Assembly (NCBI GenBank): GCA_014380825.1
Contig: JACMJD010000460.1
Span: 1 to 13,991, forward strand
Length of the DNA: 13,991 nt
Direction of reading: 5' to 3'
Origin: Phycisphaerae bacterium
GTDB lineage: Bacteria > Planctomycetota > Phycisphaerae > Tepidisphaerales > Tepidisphaeraceae
This document shows, in pieces, positions 5,488 to 13,257 of the stretch. Position 1 is the stretch's first letter, and the number at the start of each line of letters is the position of its first letter. A program made the position numbers and the translations under genes. The notes under the pieces are model-generated. The model was given only the letters and a program-made list of their open reading frames with translations. It ran no database searches and was not told where the DNA came from.

Positions 5488-5826
5488 ATGACGGAGAATC
5501 GACCAGCGCCGACGCTCGATTATGCAAAGAGCGAACCTCGCCGACCGCTGCTCTCGCGCATTCGTTTCGGCACGATCGGTCTCGCCCTCTCTCTGCTGAC
5601 CTCAACGACCATGTTCGCATTCGGACTGATCATTCAGCCTGCGTTCAACATCGACAGGCACAACTTTGGCAATGCGTGCCTACTCTGGCTCAACGTTCCG
5701 GCGTTGATTGCGGTCGTCATGTGCGTCTGGGGAATCGCACAGGATCCGAAGTCGGGCATACCGTACCTCGGCATCATCGTAGCTGTACCGTCCGCGATCT
5801 TGGCACCGATGTTCATGTGCGCGTGA
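5488..5826 (+). CDS. Small integral membrane protein, unknown function
   Basis: A 112-residue protein I do not recognise. About 25 polar residues are followed by three hydrophobic segments: near residues 28-50 (FGTIGLALSLL onward), 62-84 (ACLLWLNVPALIAVVMCVW) and 91-111 (GIPYLGIIVAVPSAILAP). No conserved catalytic motif is visible. The start is supported by the -10 at 5474-5479; an AGGAGA at 5465-5470 is too far upstream for a ribosome binding site and lies before the promoter hexamer. It is divergent from aroA across 78 bp and ends 14 nt inside the 3' end of the convergent epimerase-like gene. GC-rich third positions and a uniform hydrophobic pattern argue that it is real. Confidence 0.7.
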   Translation: MTENRPAPTLDYAKSEPRRPLLSRIRFGTIGLALSLLTSTTMFAFGLIIQPAFNIDRHNFGNACLLWLNVPALIAVVMCVWGIAQDPKSGIPYLGIIVAVPSAILAPMFMCA

Positions 5827-6733
5827 GCGATTCGAGCGTGCGATGCAGATCGGGGTGATGAAAATCGAATCCAAGCTCAGTCAGCCTTCGCGGCATCGCG
5901 CGCCGTCCGGTGAGCGCGAGCACCGGCTCGGTCCGCAGGAAAAGACATCCCAGTCGAACCATGATCGCCGGCACCGGCGGACTCCACGGTCGAAGCACGG
6001 CGCGGCGAAGTTCACGCATGAAATCCGCGTTCGTGACCGCATTCGGAGATGCGGCGATGTAGAGTCCACTCATTTGCGCGTGGTCGATCGCCTGCAGCTT
6101 AATCCGCACCAGATCGTCGATGTGAATCCAACTGATGTACTGCCGTCCATTGCCAACGGCTCCACCCAAGAAGCACCGCGCCATCGTGGCGAGCATTTTT
6201 AGCACACCGCCATCGCGACCGAGGACGAACGGCATGCGCAGCAGCACGCGGCGCGTGCGCGGTGTCGGGATCGATGCGAAGGCACGTTCCCACTTCGTGG
6301 CGGTATCGACGGGAATTCCTTCGCCGACGGGGGATGTCTCATCGCAGATGGAATCACCGCGATCGCCGTAGATCGCTGTGGTTGAAGCCTGGATCATAAT
6401 CGCTGGCGGATTGGCGCAACGATTGATCGCTTCGCCTATCGTGCGAACGGCGTTCTCGCGCGAGCGGTCGATCTCATCGAGCGCGCGGCGCGTGTAACGG
6501 CAATTCACGTTCTTCCCGGCGAGATTGATCACCGCATCGGCGCCGTCGAGCTGACGCAGCCACGTGTCGGCGACGGTACGACCGTCCCATCGCACGTCCC
6601 GAATTTGTCCGCGCGGGTCGCGCGGACTGCGCGTAAGGATGACGACATCATCGCCGCGCGCCGCGAGTGCATCAGCAATCGCGCAACCGATGAATCCGCT
6701 TCCGCCCGCGATGACAGTGCGACGTTGCTTCAT
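5813..6733 (-). CDS. TIGR01777-family NAD(P)-dependent epimerase-like SDR protein
   Basis: A 306-residue extended-SDR protein of the YfcH/TIGR01777 type. The N-terminal Rossmann motif is AGGSGFIG with Gly10, Gly13 and Gly16, followed by VVILTR as the second strand. DAVINLAGKNV near residues 65-75 is the typical fourth-strand motif, then ASTTAIYGD with the SDR Ser/Tyr region, a TKWERAF block, and VLLRMPFVLG...GG.L..M near 165-185. ISWIHIDDL at 200-208 is highly typical. The C-terminal LTGRRAMPRRLTELGFDFHHPDL matches the DUF1731 tail. Substrates of this family are mostly unknown. It begins 6 nt after the stop of the fusion gene upstream, so translation is probably coupled, and it closes the three-gene operon. 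The 3' end overlaps a convergent gene by 14 nt. Confidence 0.9.
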   Translation of the reverse strand: MKQRRTVIAGGSGFIGCAIADALAARGDDVVILTRSPRDPRGQIRDVRWDGRTVADTWLRQLDGADAVINLAGKNVNCRYTRRALDEIDRSRENAVRTIGEAINRCANPPAIMIQASTTAIYGDRGDSICDETSPVGEGIPVDTATKWERAFASIPTPRTRRVLLRMPFVLGRDGGVLKMLATMARCFLGGAVGNGRQYISWIHIDDLVRIKLQAIDHAQMSGLYIAASPNAVTNADFMRELRRAVLRPWSPPVPAIMVRLGCLFLRTEPVLALTGRRAMPRRLTELGFDFHHPDLHRTLESLTRT

Positions 6734-6739
6734 GACGGC

Positions 6740-8428
6740 CTAAATCGTGGCTGCCAATCCATACACGAGCACAAAGTAGACGATGACGACGTTCAGCGCG
6801 ACATACGCGAGGGAAAGCGATCGCGTTGTCAGGAACGGTTTGGCGTCGAAGATCGTAAACCCGATCGCCAGTCGCGCGCCCCAGAACAGCGCGATGAAGG
6901 CGCAGATCGCGCGGGCGAGCGGAGCGCCGGAGCTGAGCGTCGTCGGTTGCGCCAATGACACGACGCCGAAGCCGACAATCGTGGCCAGCACGAATGCGCC
7001 GTGGCTCCAGATGATATGACGCGTGAGCCCATTGAGTGTGACCAGGTTGTGCCGCCAATCCAGGACCAGCGTCATCACCACGCCCGCCGACGTGATGCCC
7101 AGATGCATGATGCCGGCGAGCATCAGCAACAGGGGGAGATGATCGACCAGCGCGCGCGGCAATGCGTGCAGCGGCTGGACCATCGGCAGCATCACGTTCA
7201 TGACGAACGGTCCGTGGAACAGCAGTGGGATCGGAAGCAGGGCGACGACCGCGGTGAAGATCCACCCGCGCCATCCGCGACCAAGTCCGGCGCGCCGAAC
7301 GATCGTGGATCGTTGCGCGAGGAGACCGGCGCCTTGCAGCAGGAAGTAGAGCGTGGGCAAACCGTATCCGCCGCGCGCGGGAATGGAGATGGCGATGTCA
7401 TGAACGAGGCCCGAGGCGAGGAACGTGGCGATGAGCGCGGCCAGCGCGCCGGCGCGAGGTCGCAGCGGTTCGAAGATGAATTCGCGCGCGAGAACGACGA
7501 ACGCCGTATTCCATCGCCGGCCCCACAGTTCGCCCAGCGACGTGGAACGACCGGGCTCGAGCATGAGAGCTTCCGTGTGCACACCTCTCGATTGCCAGAT
7601 CAGCGCGACCAAGTGAAAGAGCCCAAAGTGTACGAGCAGGACCAGGCCGATCATCATGCTCCACCCGCGCAGCAGCGGAGCGCTGATTGCGTGTGGTACC
7701 AGCCAGAGCAGAGCGGCGCCGATCAGCATCTTGATACCGACGACCGACCACTCGCGCCGCGCCGGCGGCGGCGCATCGCGCGGGCCGAGGAAGCGCCGAG
7801 CGTCCATGCCGGTCCAGAGGAAGAAATAGCCGAGTGAGCGATGGATGCCGCGCGGACCGGGCGCCGACAAGAGAGTCAGCCACTTGCACGCGTAGAAGAT
7901 CGCGAACGCGATCGTGAACATGTACGACCAAGGCGGCAGACGCCGGGCGAAGATCAGCGCCAGGATCGGCAAAACGATCAATGGCAGCCAGCGAACGATC
8001 GAGCGAAACTGCGAGCGGTCCCGCTTCGGCCCGATCGAGCAACTGCCGCCGCTGATGCGATATCGGTTTCGCGCGAACACGCGATAACCGAATCGCAGCA
8101 TCGCGTTGATGCCCGGCCAGCGCGCCATCGTGCAGATCGGGCGCAGCCACGGGTAGGCGGACAGGATGAAAAGGACTGCGTCAATGCCGCGATAAACGAT
8201 TCGATCAGCGTGTCGATCCGGGCCGGCGACGTATAGCTCGCGCATCAGGTCGTCGATCGTCGCGCCGGTGAGTTCCAGCGCGGCCGGCGAATGCAGCCCC
8301 ATCAGCTTGAAGCCGCGGCGCTGAAGCGTCGTGCGGAACCGCCGGGCCAGGGCGGTGCAGAATCCGCAGTCGTCGTCGTAAAAAATCGCGCCGCGGCCGA
8401 TGTCCATGTTGGAGGTATTCGTCGTCAT
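6740..8428 (-). CDS. Fusion: DCC thiol-oxidoreductase domain + MBOAT wax-synthase-like domain + C-terminal membrane module
   Basis: A 562-residue multi-domain membrane protein. Residues 13-130 form a DCC (DUF393) thioredoxin-like domain: AIFYDDDCGFC with the Cys21-x-x-Cys24 pair and YPWLRPI near 92-98. Residues 145-420 are polytopic and carry the MBOAT_2/wax-synthase signature: SLGELWGRRWN at 297-307 and FLASGLVHD at 336-344, whose His343 matches the catalytic histidine of membrane-bound O-acyltransferases. Residues 430-562 add about four more helices (LTRHIIWSHGAFVLA, FIALFWGARLAIGF, IFDAKPFLT) resembling a separate membrane module. ATG 8428 is chosen because AGGTG lies just upstream; the in-frame extension to 8515 is encoded by an intergenic repeat and looks spurious. 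The acyl acceptor is unknown. It is the middle gene of the operon controlled by the palindrome at 8972-8987. Confidence 0.85.
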   Translation of the reverse strand: MTTNTSNMDIGRGAIFYDDDCGFCTALARRFRTTLQRRGFKLMGLHSPAALELTGATIDDLMRELYVAGPDRHADRIVYRGIDAVLFILSAYPWLRPICTMARWPGINAMLRFGYRVFARNRYRISGGSCSIGPKRDRSQFRSIVRWLPLIVLPILALIFARRLPPWSYMFTIAFAIFYACKWLTLLSAPGPRGIHRSLGYFFLWTGMDARRFLGPRDAPPPARREWSVVGIKMLIGAALLWLVPHAISAPLLRGWSMMIGLVLLVHFGLFHLVALIWQSRGVHTEALMLEPGRSTSLGELWGRRWNTAFVVLAREFIFEPLRPRAGALAALIATFLASGLVHDIAISIPARGGYGLPTLYFLLQGAGLLAQRSTIVRRAGLGRGWRGWIFTAVVALLPIPLLFHGPFVMNVMLPMVQPLHALPRALVDHLPLLLMLAGIMHLGITSAGVVMTLVLDWRHNLVTLNGLTRHIIWSHGAFVLATIVGFGVVSLAQPTTLSSGAPLARAICAFIALFWGARLAIGFTIFDAKPFLTTRSLSLAYVALNVVIVYFVLVYGLAATI

Positions 8429-8459
8429 GATGCACCTATCGCGTTGCGGAGTTGTGACT

Positions 8460-8510
8460 GCGGATTGCGGATTGAAAAGCTTCACCATCCGCAATCTGCA
8501 ATCCGCAATC
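8460..8510. repeat. Interspersed inverted repeat between two operon genes
   Basis: Tandem 7-mers of the type GCGGATT (8460-8473) face inverted, diverged copies (ATCCGCA, ATCTGCA, ATCCGCA at 8487-8507). Arms 8460-8472 and 8487-8499 pair over 13 bp with one non-canonical pair, around a 14-nt loop. The element ends 1 nt before the stop codon of the 140-aa gene and lies in the 83-nt gap before the fusion gene. Transcribed, it would fold and could stabilise or attenuate the mRNA. In one frame it encodes an artificial N-terminal extension of the fusion protein. Confidence 0.6.
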
Positions 8511-8511
8511 G

Positions 8512-8934
8512 TCATTCCTTCACCGTCCGCATCGCTTCAACCGACGCATTGCTGACCGGCAACAGCGGCAGGCCGCTTTCGATCACGCTCCTGCGACTCT
8601 TGCGACGGATCTTGGCGAAGTTGAACACGTTGAAGAAATGCATCCCGCCGAGGATCAATAGCACCAGGCCGATCTTCGTGCTGAGGAATTCGAATGCTTC
8701 TTGTGTCGTGCCCGGCTTGTCGCCGTACTTCAAAGCGAGCGTCACGTAGCCGATGTTGATCAGGTAAAACCCGACCACCCGCAGGTGGTTGACGGAGTCC
8801 GCCACCACTTCGTCGCCGTGAAACGCTTCAACGAGGAACACGCGTCCGTTGCGATGCAGCGTTCGAGCCACCCACATCGTGAGAGCGACGCTGACAAACA
8901 GATAGATCACATAACTGGAGGTAACGGTGGTCAT
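8512..8934 (-). CDS. Conserved small membrane protein, unknown function
   Basis: A 140-residue protein with three hydrophobic segments: near 7-26 (SYVIYLFVSVALTMWVARTL), 51-69 (LRVVGFYLINIGYVTLAL) and 84-107 (LSTKIGLVLLILGGMHFFN). Polar landmarks are TLHRNGRVFLVEAFHGDE, ADSVNHL and GGMHFFNVFNFAKIRR, a pattern I associate with a conserved uncharacterised membrane protein rather than any enzyme. The His and Asn residues at membrane edges could bind a cofactor or lipid, but this is speculation. GGAG lies 7 nt upstream of ATG 8934. It is the first gene of the operon, directly behind the palindrome at 8972-8987, and precedes the DCC/MBOAT fusion gene. Confidence 0.82.
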   Translation of the reverse strand: MTTVTSSYVIYLFVSVALTMWVARTLHRNGRVFLVEAFHGDEVVADSVNHLRVVGFYLINIGYVTLALKYGDKPGTTQEAFEFLSTKIGLVLLILGGMHFFNVFNFAKIRRKSRRSVIESGLPLLPVSNASVEAMRTVKE

Positions 8935-8971
8935 GGCGGCACTCCATCTTGCGAATCGTTCGGACAGTCAT

Positions 8972-8987
8972 TTCTGTATACACAGAA
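8972..8987. promoter_or_regulatory. Operator palindrome TTCTGT-N4-ACAGAA upstream of the membrane/acyltransferase operon
   Basis: Perfect 6-bp arms TTCTGT (8972-8977) and ACAGAA (8982-8987) flank ATAC. The same arms with the same spacing, and the same preceding AT, occur at 9563-9578 upstream of the regulator gene. On the minus strand TATACA (8980-8975) is a fair -10 lying inside this site, with a weak T-rich -35. Binding here would block RNA polymerase. It starts 38 bp before the 140-aa gene. Confidence 0.75.
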
Positions 8988-9014
8988 GCGACGACCGAAA
9001 AAAATTTCGCTGGA

Positions 9015-9545
9015 CTACGACATCGCTCCCAGCATCCGCACAACCTTGTCCCCCATCTTCACCGTCTTCACGACGGTCGGCGTGGGGAGCTTGCGCGTCT
9101 GGTCGTACCAGGCGCTCATCAGCTCGAAGAACTGGAGCATGTCGTTCAATCGATCGCGCGTATACGCATCGGCTCCGCCGGCTTTCCTGGAAGCTGCGAC
9201 CGATTCGCGCAGCAGGGCAAGGGTCGGATCGCATTCGCGTTTTTTGCGCTCGTCGAGGATCAGCCGGAACATCTCCCAGACGTCTTTCATGCATTCGAAG
9301 TGATCGCGGCGATCGCCCATCACGTGGGCGACGCGCACGATGCCCCAGCTCTGCAATTCGCGCAGGCTGTTACTAACGTTCGATCGCGCGACGCTCAGCG
9401 TCTGTGCGATCTCCTCGGCATCCAGCGGCTTGGGCGCCAGGAACAGCAGGGCGTGGATCTGCGCGACGGTGCGATTGATGCCCCATCGCGTGCCCATCTC
9501 GCCCCAGTGGAGCACGAACTTCTGCATGATCGGAGTCAGTTCCAT
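9015..9545 (-). CDS. GbsR/MarR-family transcriptional regulator
   Basis: A 176-residue cytoplasmic DNA-binding protein. Residues 25-75 form a winged helix-turn-helix: TVAQIHALLFLAPKPLDAEEIA, then LSVARSNVSNSLRELQSWGIV with the recognition helix around 53-65, then RVAHVMGDRRDHF as the wing. The C-terminal half (80-176) is helical and would dimerise and sense a ligand, as in GbsR-type proteins (COG1510). The start is ATG 9545, with AAGGA 5 nt upstream; the in-frame extension to 9692 crosses the promoter and operator and is rejected. No cysteine pair suggests redox sensing. It lies 80 bp upstream of the membrane/acyltransferase operon on the same strand, and both carry the same palindrome, so it is probably an autoregulated local repressor. 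The ligand is unknown; glycine betaine is known only for some relatives. Confidence 0.9.
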   Translation of the reverse strand: MELTPIMQKFVLHWGEMGTRWGINRTVAQIHALLFLAPKPLDAEEIAQTLSVARSNVSNSLRELQSWGIVRVAHVMGDRRDHFECMKDVWEMFRLILDERKKRECDPTLALLRESVAASRKAGGADAYTRDRLNDMLQFFELMSAWYDQTRKLPTPTVVKTVKMGDKVVRMLGAMS

Positions 9546-9562
9546 CGCCGTCCTTCTCTTAT

Positions 9563-9578
9563 TTCTGTCTGAACAGAA
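9563..9578. promoter_or_regulatory. Operator palindrome TTCTGT-N4-ACAGAA upstream of the regulator gene
   Basis: Perfect arms TTCTGT (9563-9568) and ACAGAA (9573-9578) flank CTGA. The site is identical in arms and spacing to 8972-8987 and begins 17 bp before the regulator ATG. It overlaps the downstream edge of the predicted -10 and the predicted transcription start, a repressor position. It is also 98 bp upstream of the divergent esterase gene, so that gene might be affected too. Confidence 0.75.
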
Positions 9579-9605
9579 TATACAGTAAGAACGTTGATCA
9601 GGCAA
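9577..9605 (-). promoter_or_regulatory. Sigma70-type promoter of the regulator gene
   Basis: On the minus strand TTGCCT (9605-9600) and TATATT (9582-9577) are separated by 17 nt. The start would fall near 9570, inside the palindrome, giving a leader of about 25 nt that contains the AAGGA ribosome binding site. Confidence 0.55.
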
Positions 9606-9676: not shown

Positions 9677-11062
9677 ATGATGCGGTACGCATCGTTCCTG
9701 CTGGTCGTCTTCGCCGTGGCTTGCCCTCTTCGCGGAAGTGGGCCGCTGGCGGAGGCCGTTCGCGAGTATTTCAATGCAACCACGCCCGAAGGTCGAAAGT
9801 CCGCGGTCGCTGAGACTGCGTCGACCGCAATCGATGGCGCACAGCTTTCGGCGGCGCTGCACCGCGCCGTCAATTTCGAGTCCTACAAATCGGGAGAACA
9901 AACCGTCGCGATTCAACTCGAAGACGGATCGACGCGCACCGTCTTCGTTCGCGTGCCGAACAACTACTCGCCGCAGCGCGCCTGGCCGATCATCCTTGCG
10001 TATCACGGGACGGGTGGCGGGGGACATGATCTCATCGAACCGATCGTCCGCCTGCTCGGCAACGAAGCCGAAGACTTTCTCATTGCTGGTGTCGATCAAT
10101 ACCAGCCCAACAACGTCGACTCGAAACGAAGCTGGCGGCCGGAGTATCGACTCGTGTTTCAGGATCTCAAGCGGCACTTCAACATTGACAGCGACCGCAT
10201 CTACACGACCGGATTCTCCGGCGGCGGATACGTCGCGTGGTCGATGGCCATCTTCTACGGCGACGAAATCGCCGCGACGATTCCGGTCGCAAGCGCCTTC
10301 GACGCCGCGCCCGAGATTCCCGGCATGTGGGAGATGCTGCTGCCGAACGTGTCGAACACGCCGGTGTTGAATGTGTGGGGAGCGAACGATCGGCTTCAGG
10401 TGCTGGGGATCGATCTGACCACGCCGCAGGGGACGAATCACGAGCTGAACCAGAAGCTGATCCCGATCGCGAAGATGATGAATCTGCCGATCACGTCCTT
10501 CTGCGTAAAGGGCGGCGGGCACACGTTCGAGCCACCTCGCAAACAGACGCTGGAGATGCTCAAGAAGAAACGCGAGCAATATCCACGCGAAGTGAAGAAG
10601 CGTTTCCGCTATCTCAACCAGGCCCGCGCGTATTGGCTGGAAGGTTTGGCATGGGATGGCGACCAATGGGGCCTCGGGCCACGAGAGTTGCCGGATAAAC
10701 AGGGTCAGACGCGCGAGCGAGCGATCGCGGAAATGCTAGAACAGACACTGGGCTCACTCCACGGAAAGATCGACCGACAGGACATCACGATCAATTCCTC
10801 GCATCTCGGCGAGCTTGCGGTTTGGTTTGGCGAGGGGATGATCGACTGGACAAAACCGATCCGCGTCACGGCGAACGGCAAGGTTGTGTTCGAAGGACCG
10901 ATCGAACGCGACGTGCGGGTGGCGCTCTCGCAGGCCGCGCGAACGCGGGACTTCGAGCGGCTTCGCTGGGCGGGATTGAAAATCAGCAAAGACGGCTCGG
11001 CACGATTGATCGATCCAGATAAAGACGAATTGCCCGCGGTGGTTTGGGAGAAACCGCATTAG
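9677..11062 (+). CDS. Secreted alpha/beta-hydrolase esterase (PHB depolymerase/feruloyl-esterase-like)
   Basis: A 461-residue exported serine hydrolase. The N-terminus is a short signal (residues 1-15) ending in AVAC, so it may be cut after Ala15 or be a weak lipobox at Cys16. The hydrolase core shows the oxyanion motif LAYHGTGGGG (His110-Gly111), the nucleophile elbow GFSGGGY with Ser181, an acid at VWGANDR (Asp238) and the catalytic His282 in KGGGHTFE. This layout is that of secreted polymer or ester-cleaving enzymes; the substrate cannot be read from the sequence. Residues 300-461 form an extra C-terminal region, including GELAVWFGEGMIDWTKPIRV and NGKVVFEGPIERDV, which looks beta-rich. AAAGGA is 7 nt before ATG 9677. 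A DUF4139 gene follows after 68 bp and may be co-transcribed. It is divergent from the regulator. Confidence 0.85.
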   Translation: MMRYASFLLVVFAVACPLRGSGPLAEAVREYFNATTPEGRKSAVAETASTAIDGAQLSAALHRAVNFESYKSGEQTVAIQLEDGSTRTVFVRVPNNYSPQRAWPIILAYHGTGGGGHDLIEPIVRLLGNEAEDFLIAGVDQYQPNNVDSKRSWRPEYRLVFQDLKRHFNIDSDRIYTTGFSGGGYVAWSMAIFYGDEIAATIPVASAFDAAPEIPGMWEMLLPNVSNTPVLNVWGANDRLQVLGIDLTTPQGTNHELNQKLIPIAKMMNLPITSFCVKGGGHTFEPPRKQTLEMLKKKREQYPREVKKRFRYLNQARAYWLEGLAWDGDQWGLGPRELPDKQGQTRERAIAEMLEQTLGSLHGKIDRQDITINSSHLGELAVWFGEGMIDWTKPIRVTANGKVVFEGPIERDVRVALSQAARTRDFERLRWAGLKISKDGSARLIDPDKDELPAVVWEKPH

Positions 11063-11130
11063 CCGCGAGCGGCAAGCTGAAACTTTTCGTCCGTCTCAGC
11101 GTCCCACATTGCATTGAAAGGAATGATTCC

Positions 11131-13257
11131 ATGCGCACGATCTGGCAACATTTTCTGATCGCAAGTGCGGTCGCCGCTGTACCGTTGATGATGGCTTCGC
11201 GATCGCACGCTCAATCTGACAGCCAACCGCGTGCCGAAGCCCCAGCAAACGCCAAACCCGCCACTGAAGTTCCCGTCAAGCAAGTCGTACTCTTCAGCTC
11301 CGGAGTCGGGTATTTCGAACACTTCGGCAGCATCCAGGGCGACGGCTCGACCGAGCTGCGGTTCAAAACGAACCAGATCAACGACATCCTCAAGTCGCTC
11401 ATCCTCCAGGACTTGGACGGCGGACGCGTGACGACGATCACGTATCCCTCGCAGGACCCGATCGCCAAAACACTTCGCAGCTTTCAGATCGACATTACCG
11501 CGAACCCGCCTCTGGCGGATCTGCTCAACCAGTTGCGCGGCGCGAAGGTCACGCTGAAACTGGCCGATGCGACGATCACCGGCACGATCCTCGGCGTCGA
11601 GAAAAAACAGAAACCTGTGAACGACAACAAGGCTGTCATCGAGCGGCCGGCGCTGAATCTGCTCGTGGGGTCGAGCATCAAGTCGATCTACATCGAGGAC
11701 GTGAATGAAATCATCCTGGACGATCCGCAGCTTCAGGAAGAGCTGACCAAAGCGCTGAGCGCGCTGTCGGCGGCGCGGGATCAGGATAAGAAGCCGGTGC
11801 AGATCAATTTTTCCGGCAATGGCGAGCGCCGCGTGCGGTTGGGCTACGTCGTCGAAACGCCGGTGTGGAAGACGAGCTATCGCCTGATCCTGCCCGACGA
11901 TCCGAAGGAGAAGGCCGCCATTCAAGGCTGGGCAATCGTCGAGAATCAGACTGACAACGATTGGAAAGACGTGCAGCTCAGCCTGGTAAGCGGCCGGCCG
12001 ATCTCGTTTATTCAGGATCTGTATCAGCCGTTGTACATCCCGCGGCCGGTGGTGGTGCCGGAGCTTTTCGCGAGCTTGATGCCGCAGGAATACGACGCGG
12101 GGATGGCGGATCGTGCTGGGGCGGAGCGGATGAAGATGGGACGGGCAGAAGGAAAGGCGCGTCGCGGTCCAAGTGAAGCGCCAGCCGCCGCTGCGGCGCC
12201 CTCTCTCGAACAGCAGGGACAGAGCTACAACGACTACGGTGGCGCGTTGGCTAGGCCGATCGACCCGATTGCGTCCGTCGCGTCCGTCGCCTCGGCTGCA
12301 AAGGTCGGCGAGCTGTTTCAATACACCGTCGGCAACGTTTCACTGCCGCGGCAGAAAAGCGCGATGCTGCCGATCATCACCGATCCGATTGAGGTCGAAA
12401 AACTTTCCATCTACAACGCCAACGTGCTCGCGAAGAATCCGCTCAACGGCGCGCGCGTGAAGAACACGACTGATAAGCACCTGCTGGCCGGGCCGATCAC
12501 GGTGCTGGAATCGGGCACGTATGCCGGCGACGCGCGAATCGATAACGTGCCGCCGGGACAGGAACGGCTGCTGAGTTACGGCATCGATCTTCAGATGCTG
12601 GTCGACGCGACTAAGAACAAGAACGAGAGCGCGCTGCAAACCGGCAAGGTCGTCAAAGGCGTGCTCGTCATCACGCGCAAGAATCTGGCCTCGCAGGATT
12701 ATGTCGCGGAGAACAAGAGCGACAAGGCGAAGGCCCTCATCATCGAGCATCCGCTTCGGCAAGGCTGGAAGCTGGTCGACACGGAAAAACCGATCGAAAC
12801 CACGCAAACGCTGTATCGATTCAAAGGCAGCGTCGACGCGAAGAAGAGCGCGATCTTCACGGTGAAGCAGGAGATCGTGCAGAGCGAAGAGATCGCGATC
12901 CTGCCGACCAACGTGACCGCGCTCGATTTCTACAGTCGCGCCGGCGAGATTCCGCAACCCGTGCGCGATGCGCTGATCAAGGCGATGCAACTGAAACAAG
13001 CATTGGCCGACACCGAGCGACGGATCGCCGAGACCGAGCAGCAGGTGCAGACGATCACGCAGGAACAGAATCGCATCCGCGAGAACATGCGCACGGTGAA
13101 TCAGCAAAGCGAGTATTCCCAGCGACTGCTCAAGAAGCTGAACGACCAGGAATCGCAAATCGAAAAACTTCAGACGCAACAGGAAGAATCCCGCAAGCAG
13201 CTCGAGCAGCAACGCCGCGATCTGGAAAACTATCTCAGCAACCTCACCGTGGGATAA
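11131..13257 (+). CDS. Secreted DUF4139-domain protein with C-terminal coiled coil
   Basis: A 708-residue exported protein of unknown function. ATG 11131 is chosen because AAAGGA (11117-11122) lies 8 nt upstream and a clear signal peptide follows (MRTIWQHFLIASAVAAVPLMMASRSHA, written here only as its beginning MRTIWQHFLIA), cut near SHA-Q. Residues 45-200 hold the N-terminal domain (VVLFSSGVGYFEHFG, then ILKSLILQDLDGG). DUF4139-type sequence begins near 260 (TPVWKTSYRLILP, GWAIVENQTDNDWKDV, LSLVSGRPISF, YQPLYIPRPVV). A low-complexity linker near 340-395 contains a small ASVASV duplication (12271-12288). The beta-rich part continues to about residue 600. Residues 614-708 are a Gln- and Glu-rich coiled coil, suited to oligomerisation or envelope attachment. 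No catalytic motif is visible. An inverted repeat follows the stop. Confidence 0.85.
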   Translation: MRTIWQHFLIASAVAAVPLMMASRSHAQSDSQPRAEAPANAKPATEVPVKQVVLFSSGVGYFEHFGSIQGDGSTELRFKTNQINDILKSLILQDLDGGRVTTITYPSQDPIAKTLRSFQIDITANPPLADLLNQLRGAKVTLKLADATITGTILGVEKKQKPVNDNKAVIERPALNLLVGSSIKSIYIEDVNEIILDDPQLQEELTKALSALSAARDQDKKPVQINFSGNGERRVRLGYVVETPVWKTSYRLILPDDPKEKAAIQGWAIVENQTDNDWKDVQLSLVSGRPISFIQDLYQPLYIPRPVVVPELFASLMPQEYDAGMADRAGAERMKMGRAEGKARRGPSEAPAAAAAPSLEQQGQSYNDYGGALARPIDPIASVASVASAAKVGELFQYTVGNVSLPRQKSAMLPIITDPIEVEKLSIYNANVLAKNPLNGARVKNTTDKHLLAGPITVLESGTYAGDARIDNVPPGQERLLSYGIDLQMLVDATKNKNESALQTGKVVKGVLVITRKNLASQDYVAENKSDKAKALIIEHPLRQGWKLVDTEKPIETTQTLYRFKGSVDAKKSAIFTVKQEIVQSEEIAILPTNVTALDFYSRAGEIPQPVRDALIKAMQLKQALADTERRIAETEQQVQTITQEQNRIRENMRTVNQQSEYSQRLLKKLNDQESQIEKLQTQQEESRKQLEQQRRDLENYLSNLTVG

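Follow-up and report, generated by a model that had tools for sequence, protein, structure and literature searches.

The closest described relatives of the system analysed here are GbsR-type regulators of respiratory and osmoprotectant genes. In Alishewanella sp. WH16-1, the GbsR-type repressor CydE controls its own operon of cytochrome bd genes, and its footprint at site 1, TATTTCAGAAATTTCTGAAAGTTCA, has the form TTTCWG-N6-CWGAAA (PMC6096048). In Bacillus subtilis, GbsR acts as a roadblock from an operator downstream of the start site, an inverted repeat whose arms are 4 bp apart, and OpcR blocks access to the promoter (PMC7396694). GbsR-type regulators encoded beside genes of unknown function form the largest group of a survey of this type, with 73 of 179 members (PMC6207618).

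Here we report a GbsR-type regulator gene and two associated palindromes in a 13,991-nt stretch of DNA from a Phycisphaerae bacterium (contig JACMJD010000460.1), referred to below as the window. The sites match the CydE site TTTCAG-N6-CTGAAA in half-site class and spacing, with T in place of A (PMC6096048), and therefore the motif class has already been described. The first-pass annotation had considered both the motif and its targets undescribed; the former view gives way to the CydE footprint and to the presence of the motif, with at most one mismatch, in five of eight CydE-clade loci, while the latter holds within the open-licence PMC literature, where no paper pairing the neighbouring gene families with GbsR was found. 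Thus, the motif class is known, and the target set is undescribed as far as these searches reach. The system differs from CydE in several respects: CydE controls cydAB, and its second footprint, GGGATGCGCATATGCAAAT, is outside the motif (PMC6096048); the CydE-clade loci have no second intercistronic operator (0/8 at up to three mismatches); and the half-sites of the present system prefer T over A. In the window, cydAB is not adjacent to the regulator gene, whose neighbours are the P140, DCC-MBOAT, and TIGR01777 genes. CioR of Chromobacterium violaceum, also of the GbsR type, likewise binds and represses its own operon, but its target is cytochrome bd (PMC11837568). GbsR and OpcR of B. subtilis differ by their osmoprotectant genes and A/T-rich operator, and the part of the report considered here does not mention a T-tract element; in comparison with them, the present system appears to combine both modes of action in one regulator (PMC7396694).

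The locus and its two palindromes

The regulator, its putative operon, and the predicted regulatory elements are arranged in the window as follows.

5813 to 6733, minus strand: TIGR01777 protein (SDR/epimerase, DUF1731), from family matches; a recurrent neighbour across loci
6740 to 8515, minus strand: fusion of DCC1-like and MBOAT_2 domains, from Pfam and profile matches
8512 to 8934, minus strand: P140, a conserved protein of 140 aa without Pfam family, first gene of the operon; a membrane protein by eye
8971 to 8988 (core 8972-8987): predicted operator 2, TTTCTGTATACACAGAAG on the plus strand, between the regulator and the operon
8998 to 9004, minus (coding) strand: T7 tract, ending 9 nt before operator 2, with conserved spacing
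9009 to 9033, minus strand: predicted RNA hairpin across the stop codon of the regulator gene, separated from the T-run by 4 nt
9015 to 9545, minus strand: GbsR-type MarR-family regulator, 176 aa, from Pfam MarR_2 and Mj223 similarity
9562 to 9579 (core 9563-9578): predicted operator 1, TTTCTGTCTGAACAGAAT on the plus strand, upstream of the regulator
9577 to 9582, minus strand: predicted -10 box TATATT, overlapping operator 1, with conserved offset
9600 to 9605, minus strand: predicted -35 box TTGCCT, separated from the -10 box by 17 bp

The N-terminal part of the regulator matches the MarR winged helix (MarR_2, 36.9 bits at a cut-off of 27; 4.2e-9). Its closest PDB entry is 1ku9 (MJ223/Mj223), the template for GbsR-type proteins, which was matched at 8e-12 by the single sequence and at 7.8e-22 by a 40-row profile over positions 7-151. 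The score against CudC (NF047500), 40.5 bits, is below the equivalog score of 218 bits. The segment ARSNVSNSLRELQ, which we take from MarR folds to be the recognition helix, is common to the clade, and the CydE-clade loci have a nearly equal segment (RSNVSMGLKEL against RSNVSTSIREL).

P140 has no Pfam family and is very widespread: all 7998 candidates scored match, and most of the 120 listed are unnamed or annotated as 'hypothetical protein'. The DCC-MBOAT fusion contains a stretch matching the profile of a separate 136-aa protein of the acidobacterial loci. The genes that follow the regulator vary among loci, in combinations of DCC, MBOAT, the 136-aa or a DoxX-like protein, P140, TIGR01777/SDR, DUF2071, and YndJ, assigned from profile matches; judging by these gene families, our guess is a role of the module in membrane or lipid redox. 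Elsewhere in the window, an adjacent pair of pseudopilin-like proteins, mutually alike by eye, is encoded on the minus strand (1007-1882 and 2139-2993), one of them matching DUF1559 (PF07596) and the other only weakly matching the N-terminal methylation motif. Divergently from the regulator, on the plus strand, are encoded an esterase-like protein with weak PHB-depolymerase-type matches (9677-11062) and a protein with a DUF4139 match below the cut-off (11044-13257).

The palindromes ATTTCTGT-N4-ACAGAA noted in the first-pass annotation are present exactly at positions 8970-8987 and 9561-9578. They had been called identical, which is correct for the arms and the 4-bp spacing; the spacer letters are unlike, and identity between the two 18-mers is 83%. 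TTCTGT-N4-ACAGAA forms the strict core, and the conserved form with flanks is TTTCWGT-N4-ACWGAAA. In a scan of the window allowing up to three mismatches, the only other matches were opposite-strand readings of the same two sites; the resulting count of four (two sites on both strands), against 0.55 expected, was reached by one of 200 shuffles, in agreement with the earlier view that chance is unlikely. Together with the conservation in orthologous loci described below, these statistics led us to reject the explanation by chance palindromes.

Each site had also been assigned to a predicted promoter, with the same placement relative to the -10 box. Both claims fail for the site at 8970-8987, because a sigma-70-like promoter (TTGCCT-17-TATATT) was predicted by the consensus scan at 9561-9578 alone, with none at 8970-8987. 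Among orthologues, TAnnnT stands at the fixed offset, with the operator beginning inside the -10 box, at 49/71 regulator sites vs 3/34 operon sites. A -10 geometry shared by both sites was thus rejected by the scan and the orthologue counts, and the two predicted sites differ in kind: promoter overlap at the regulator, and a T-run at the operon.

Conservation of the regulator site

Orthologous loci were obtained from a genome contig scan (48 loci), and from 392 planctomycete-phylum genomes (82 with matches) and 274 proteobacterial-class genomes (22 with matches), which gave 54 loci altogether. The main clade comprises 85 orthologous loci from four phyla, including 27 of 30 planctomycete loci refetched at length (L103-L129); the eight CydE-clade loci were counted apart. 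Left out of the counts were a truncated locus (L046), two duplicates (L115 and L140), a locus at 43% identity in which no site was found (L048), and the window itself.

The site TTTCWGT-N4-ACWGAAA precedes the regulator gene with at most one mismatch in 71/85 loci and with at most two in 83/85. The best match within 100 bp upstream has no mismatch in 35 loci, one in 36, two in 12, and four and seven in one locus each; its median position relative to the regulator start is -32. Control windows had no match at up to two mismatches, either 300-400 bp upstream (0/80) or inside the gene (0/85). Among 150 letter-permuted palindromes, the pair that moves the W was found in 63 and 44 loci, the next in 4, and then 0, with a mean of 0.74. 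The spacer is strictly 4 bp (71 loci vs 0-7 for eight alternative spacers). In a held-out set of 58 loci from Verrucomicrobiota and Pseudomonadota, some of them CydE-like and with L217 and L247 excluded as already used, 54 have the site with at most two mismatches. Both palindromes of the window are conserved in orthologous loci across phyla, as the first-pass annotation had proposed to check.

The predicted promoter is conserved along with the site: TTGACA is matched in at least five of six positions, 16-18 bp upstream, at 48/71 regulator sites vs 0-3 at shifted offsets. Weaker outer half-sites, TTCNGT at -8 and ACNGAA at +20, are symmetric on the same axis. The comparison, with site 1 conserved at the regulator's own promoter, backs the earlier claim that this GbsR/MarR-type regulator is autoregulated.

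The eight CydE-like loci (40-46% identity) have sites with no mismatch in three cases, one in two, and two, three, and five in one case each. A CydA-like gene, recognised by eye and with a profile built from one CydE-clade locus rather than with Pfam, is next to the regulator in seven of them; in L145, it is on the other strand and further off. Among 20 distant planctomycete GbsR-like proteins (L159-L178), eight have, upstream, a palindrome with unchanged spacing and no more than two mismatches, for example TTTCAGTATATACTGAAA in L162; the operator class is therefore wider than the main clade, and we suggest that it may be family-wide among these relatives.

The bare motif is not rare in whole genomes. 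At up to one mismatch, 21 genomes contain 79 matches vs 55 for a reversed control, which rejects a motif unique to each genome at this threshold; therefore, specificity is limited to exact or composite sites. Among the 17 exact matches listed, 12 are at regulator loci, one precedes P140 (G001), three are in G016, and one is in G017, the last four being away from any visible module gene. The surroundings of the three matches in G016 (contigs C30, C62, and C65; L156-L158) look alike.

The operon site and its T-run

The search for second sites covered the 130 nt that follow the regulator gene in discovery loci and 150 nt in held-out loci. Among 82 discovery loci, the site has no mismatch in 21 and is missing (at least four mismatches) in 31, of which 19 are acidobacterial. 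In many acidobacterial loci, a gene termed CL1 is downstream instead, without a second site. Six such loci (L020, L024, L030, L032, L033, and L041) encode the regulator followed by a CL1 protein of ~235 aa without Pfam family, and no second site was found in them; the palindrome at the regulator promoter has one or two mismatches in five of the six, and likewise one in L020.

A T-run at a fixed distance precedes the second site. T-runs were counted within 40 nt before the site, with the window dropped (n=46, compared with 47 in the hairpin count below, which includes it), and their spacing was predicted before the held-out loci were fetched. A run of at least five Ts ends exactly 9 nt before the site in 30/46 discovery and 13/31 held-out loci, and 8-11 nt before it in 36/46 and 17/31, respectively; the random-position background for the 9-nt spacing is 6e-4. 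No such run at exactly 9 nt was found in 16/46 discovery and 18/31 held-out loci with the second site. In 36 genomes selected for holding the regulator, the composite T6-N9-operator with at most one mismatch occurs once each in 19, always on the coding strand at this junction, and in none of the other 17; reversed-control matches were 0.

A rather unlikely but serious alternative is that both palindromes are ordinary promoter operators, site 2 being at or close to a promoter of the operon, and that the T-run serves as the U-tract in an intrinsic terminator of the regulator gene, standing close to the operator through compactness. A clear hairpin with a T-run is indeed seen in L043, L044 (from the cultured Azoarcus indigens), L109, and L139. 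In the window, the 32-nt segment 9005-9036, before the T7 tract, folds at -12.6 kcal/mol (z -3.6 vs 100 mononucleotide shuffles), and therefore an ordinary terminator beside the operator is possible there; the consensus terminator scan of the window did not report this hairpin. However, a hairpin abuts the T-run in just 14 of 47 loci with the second site, the window hairpin, being 4 nt away, not counted among them, and at least six Ts are found in 35/46 loci with the second site vs 1/31 without it. Compactness is opposed by the equal distance of 9 nt for a run that starts from the stop codon (L006) and for one that starts from 64 nt behind it (L139); distances in other loci are 10-14 nt.

A separate operon promoter would have room in the window, where the ATG of the operon is 54 nt past the start of operator 2. 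Against it, sigma-70 elements at the regulator's fixed offsets are found at only 3/34 and 2/34 operon sites, and the alignment columns suggest that the invariant C at position 12 and GAAA at 14-17 exclude a -10 box within the operator. Moreover, in five loci (L001, L002, L005, L006, and L117) the gene behind the regulator, which encodes DCC in the first four and is an unidentified ORF in L117, has its first in-frame start codon inside operator 2, the frame being closed 4-22 nt upstream. If this start is used, the operator lies downstream of any transcription start site. Later in-frame starts within 90 nt are present in four of the five loci, and none in L005. Given the position of the window ATG, this argument is not directly applicable to the window.

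It is improbable that the T-run acts as a bent A-tract, or as an additional contact, to aid binding at a weaker second site, with a purely steric block. The fixed 9-bp phase between T-run and operator would agree with such a role, but the run is strand-asymmetric, with at least six Ts on the coding strand in 49/74 loci vs at least six As in 4/74, and many second sites are exact rather than weak. Nor does the run accompany the operator elsewhere: at least five Ts at this spacing were found at 0/133 regulator sites (0/79 discovery and 0/54 held-out), and none of the eight P140 sites off the regulator contig (see below) has a run of at least five Ts, L188 having a T4 that ends 9 nt upstream. In some loci, the overlap of the second palindrome with the first in-frame start codon could also suggest a leader RNA stem-loop for translational control and no protein site, a reading that we rejected as highly improbable, since the variable positions of second sites keep no pair (AA, TT, or TC in place of TA/AT in 19/51) and the identical sequence sits on the -10 box at site 1.

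Putative distant targets and the proposed mode of control

The search for P140 homologues was positive in 44 genomes, 8 of the 21 with orthologues and 36 of the 392 from the phylum. Of these, 38 became loci and were inspected, and G129, G156, G180, G237, G361, and G394 were left out. In all seven planctomycete and verrucomicrobial genomes where P140 is away from the regulator, on another contig (G192, G136, G077, G097, G167, G001, and G005), it is preceded by a site with at most one mismatch. The site was found in 0/4 acidobacterial genomes with relocated P140: in G006, G009, and G018 the gene is on another contig, and in G008 the regulator is not within 10 kb and its contig number was not seen. 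Genomes with P140 and no regulator match at E 1e-15 have the site in 1/12 cases (G242), and comparison with 7/7 gives 1.6e-4 by the Fisher test (0.009 for 7/11 when acidobacterial cases are included). In three further genomes, where the sole match is a distantly related GbsR-like protein (31-35% identity), P140 is preceded by a site with one mismatch in G038 and by none in the other two.

Where P140 is on the regulator contig (n=12), it has its own site in three genomes and none in nine; at least two of these nine siteless genes (G363 and G019) are directly behind the regulator, and therefore the rule that the site follows P140 has exceptions. The eight relocated sites carry TAATTT at the -10 offset in four cases, as at the regulator, and a -35 box matching in at least five of six positions in one; their promoters are weak. 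The comparison thus supports a small, mostly local regulon that includes the operon, as proposed, and putative P140 targets in trans in the planctomycete and verrucomicrobial genomes.

Comparison of loci brings out both predicted operators and their conservation, the promoter overlap at site 1, the fixed spacing of the T-tract, and the putative trans targets. From this pattern we infer binding, repression, roadblock with release, and a signal, which are probably combined as follows. A dimer of the GbsR-type MarR-family regulator would repress its own gene and the co-directional P140, DCC-MBOAT, and TIGR01777 genes via operators with identical arms. Bound to operator 1, which overlaps the predicted sigma-70 -10 box of the regulator, it would block initiation, and would act likewise at the relocated targets. 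Operator 2 would be within transcribed DNA, 9 nt behind the T7 tract of the coding strand, so that a polymerase meeting the repressor there would stall while its active site contains a U-rich RNA end, and would then be released. Leaky transcription would then yield the regulator and not the operon products. A signal, which might be a small molecule or membrane/redox stress, would take the repressor off and open both points. One repressor with two modes is the simplest reading; both modes are known in the family, in different proteins (OpcR, GbsR).

A further reading is proposed more tentatively: T7-N9-operator may be a ligand-controlled bacterial terminator, in which a DNA-bound repressor replaces the RNA hairpin, holding the polymerase on a U-rich hybrid until the complex falls apart. 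In terminators of RNA polymerase I, a T-rich stretch immediately precedes the site of a roadblock protein on the DNA, Reb1/Nsi1 or TTF-I. By analogy with these elements (PMC12366685), the fixed-distance T-run suggests a built-in release element; Pol I terminators differ in being eukaryotic, constitutive, and not ligand-controlled, and the comparison is an analogy only. Mfd is described as a major factor for polymerase removal at a strong roadblock (PMC10310618). Judged by title and opening of the abstract, none of the open-licence PMC papers found on roadblocks with T or U tracts deals with such an element.

Should T7-N9-operator prove to be a repressor-dependent terminator, it would point to a hairpin-free removal of the roadblocked polymerase, and it would offer a compact control part for synthetic operons. 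The regulator could then be transcribed in one unit with the operon that it silences, and Planctomycetota, Verrucomicrobiota, Acidobacteriota, and Pseudomonadota would possess a bacterial counterpart of Pol I terminators. One group of GbsR-type regulators with neighbours of unknown function gains a predicted operator, a target set including trans members, and a testable mechanism, and a largely uncharacterised module (P140, DCC, MBOAT, TIGR01777/SDR, DoxX-like, YndJ, and DUF2071) is tied to one candidate regulator.
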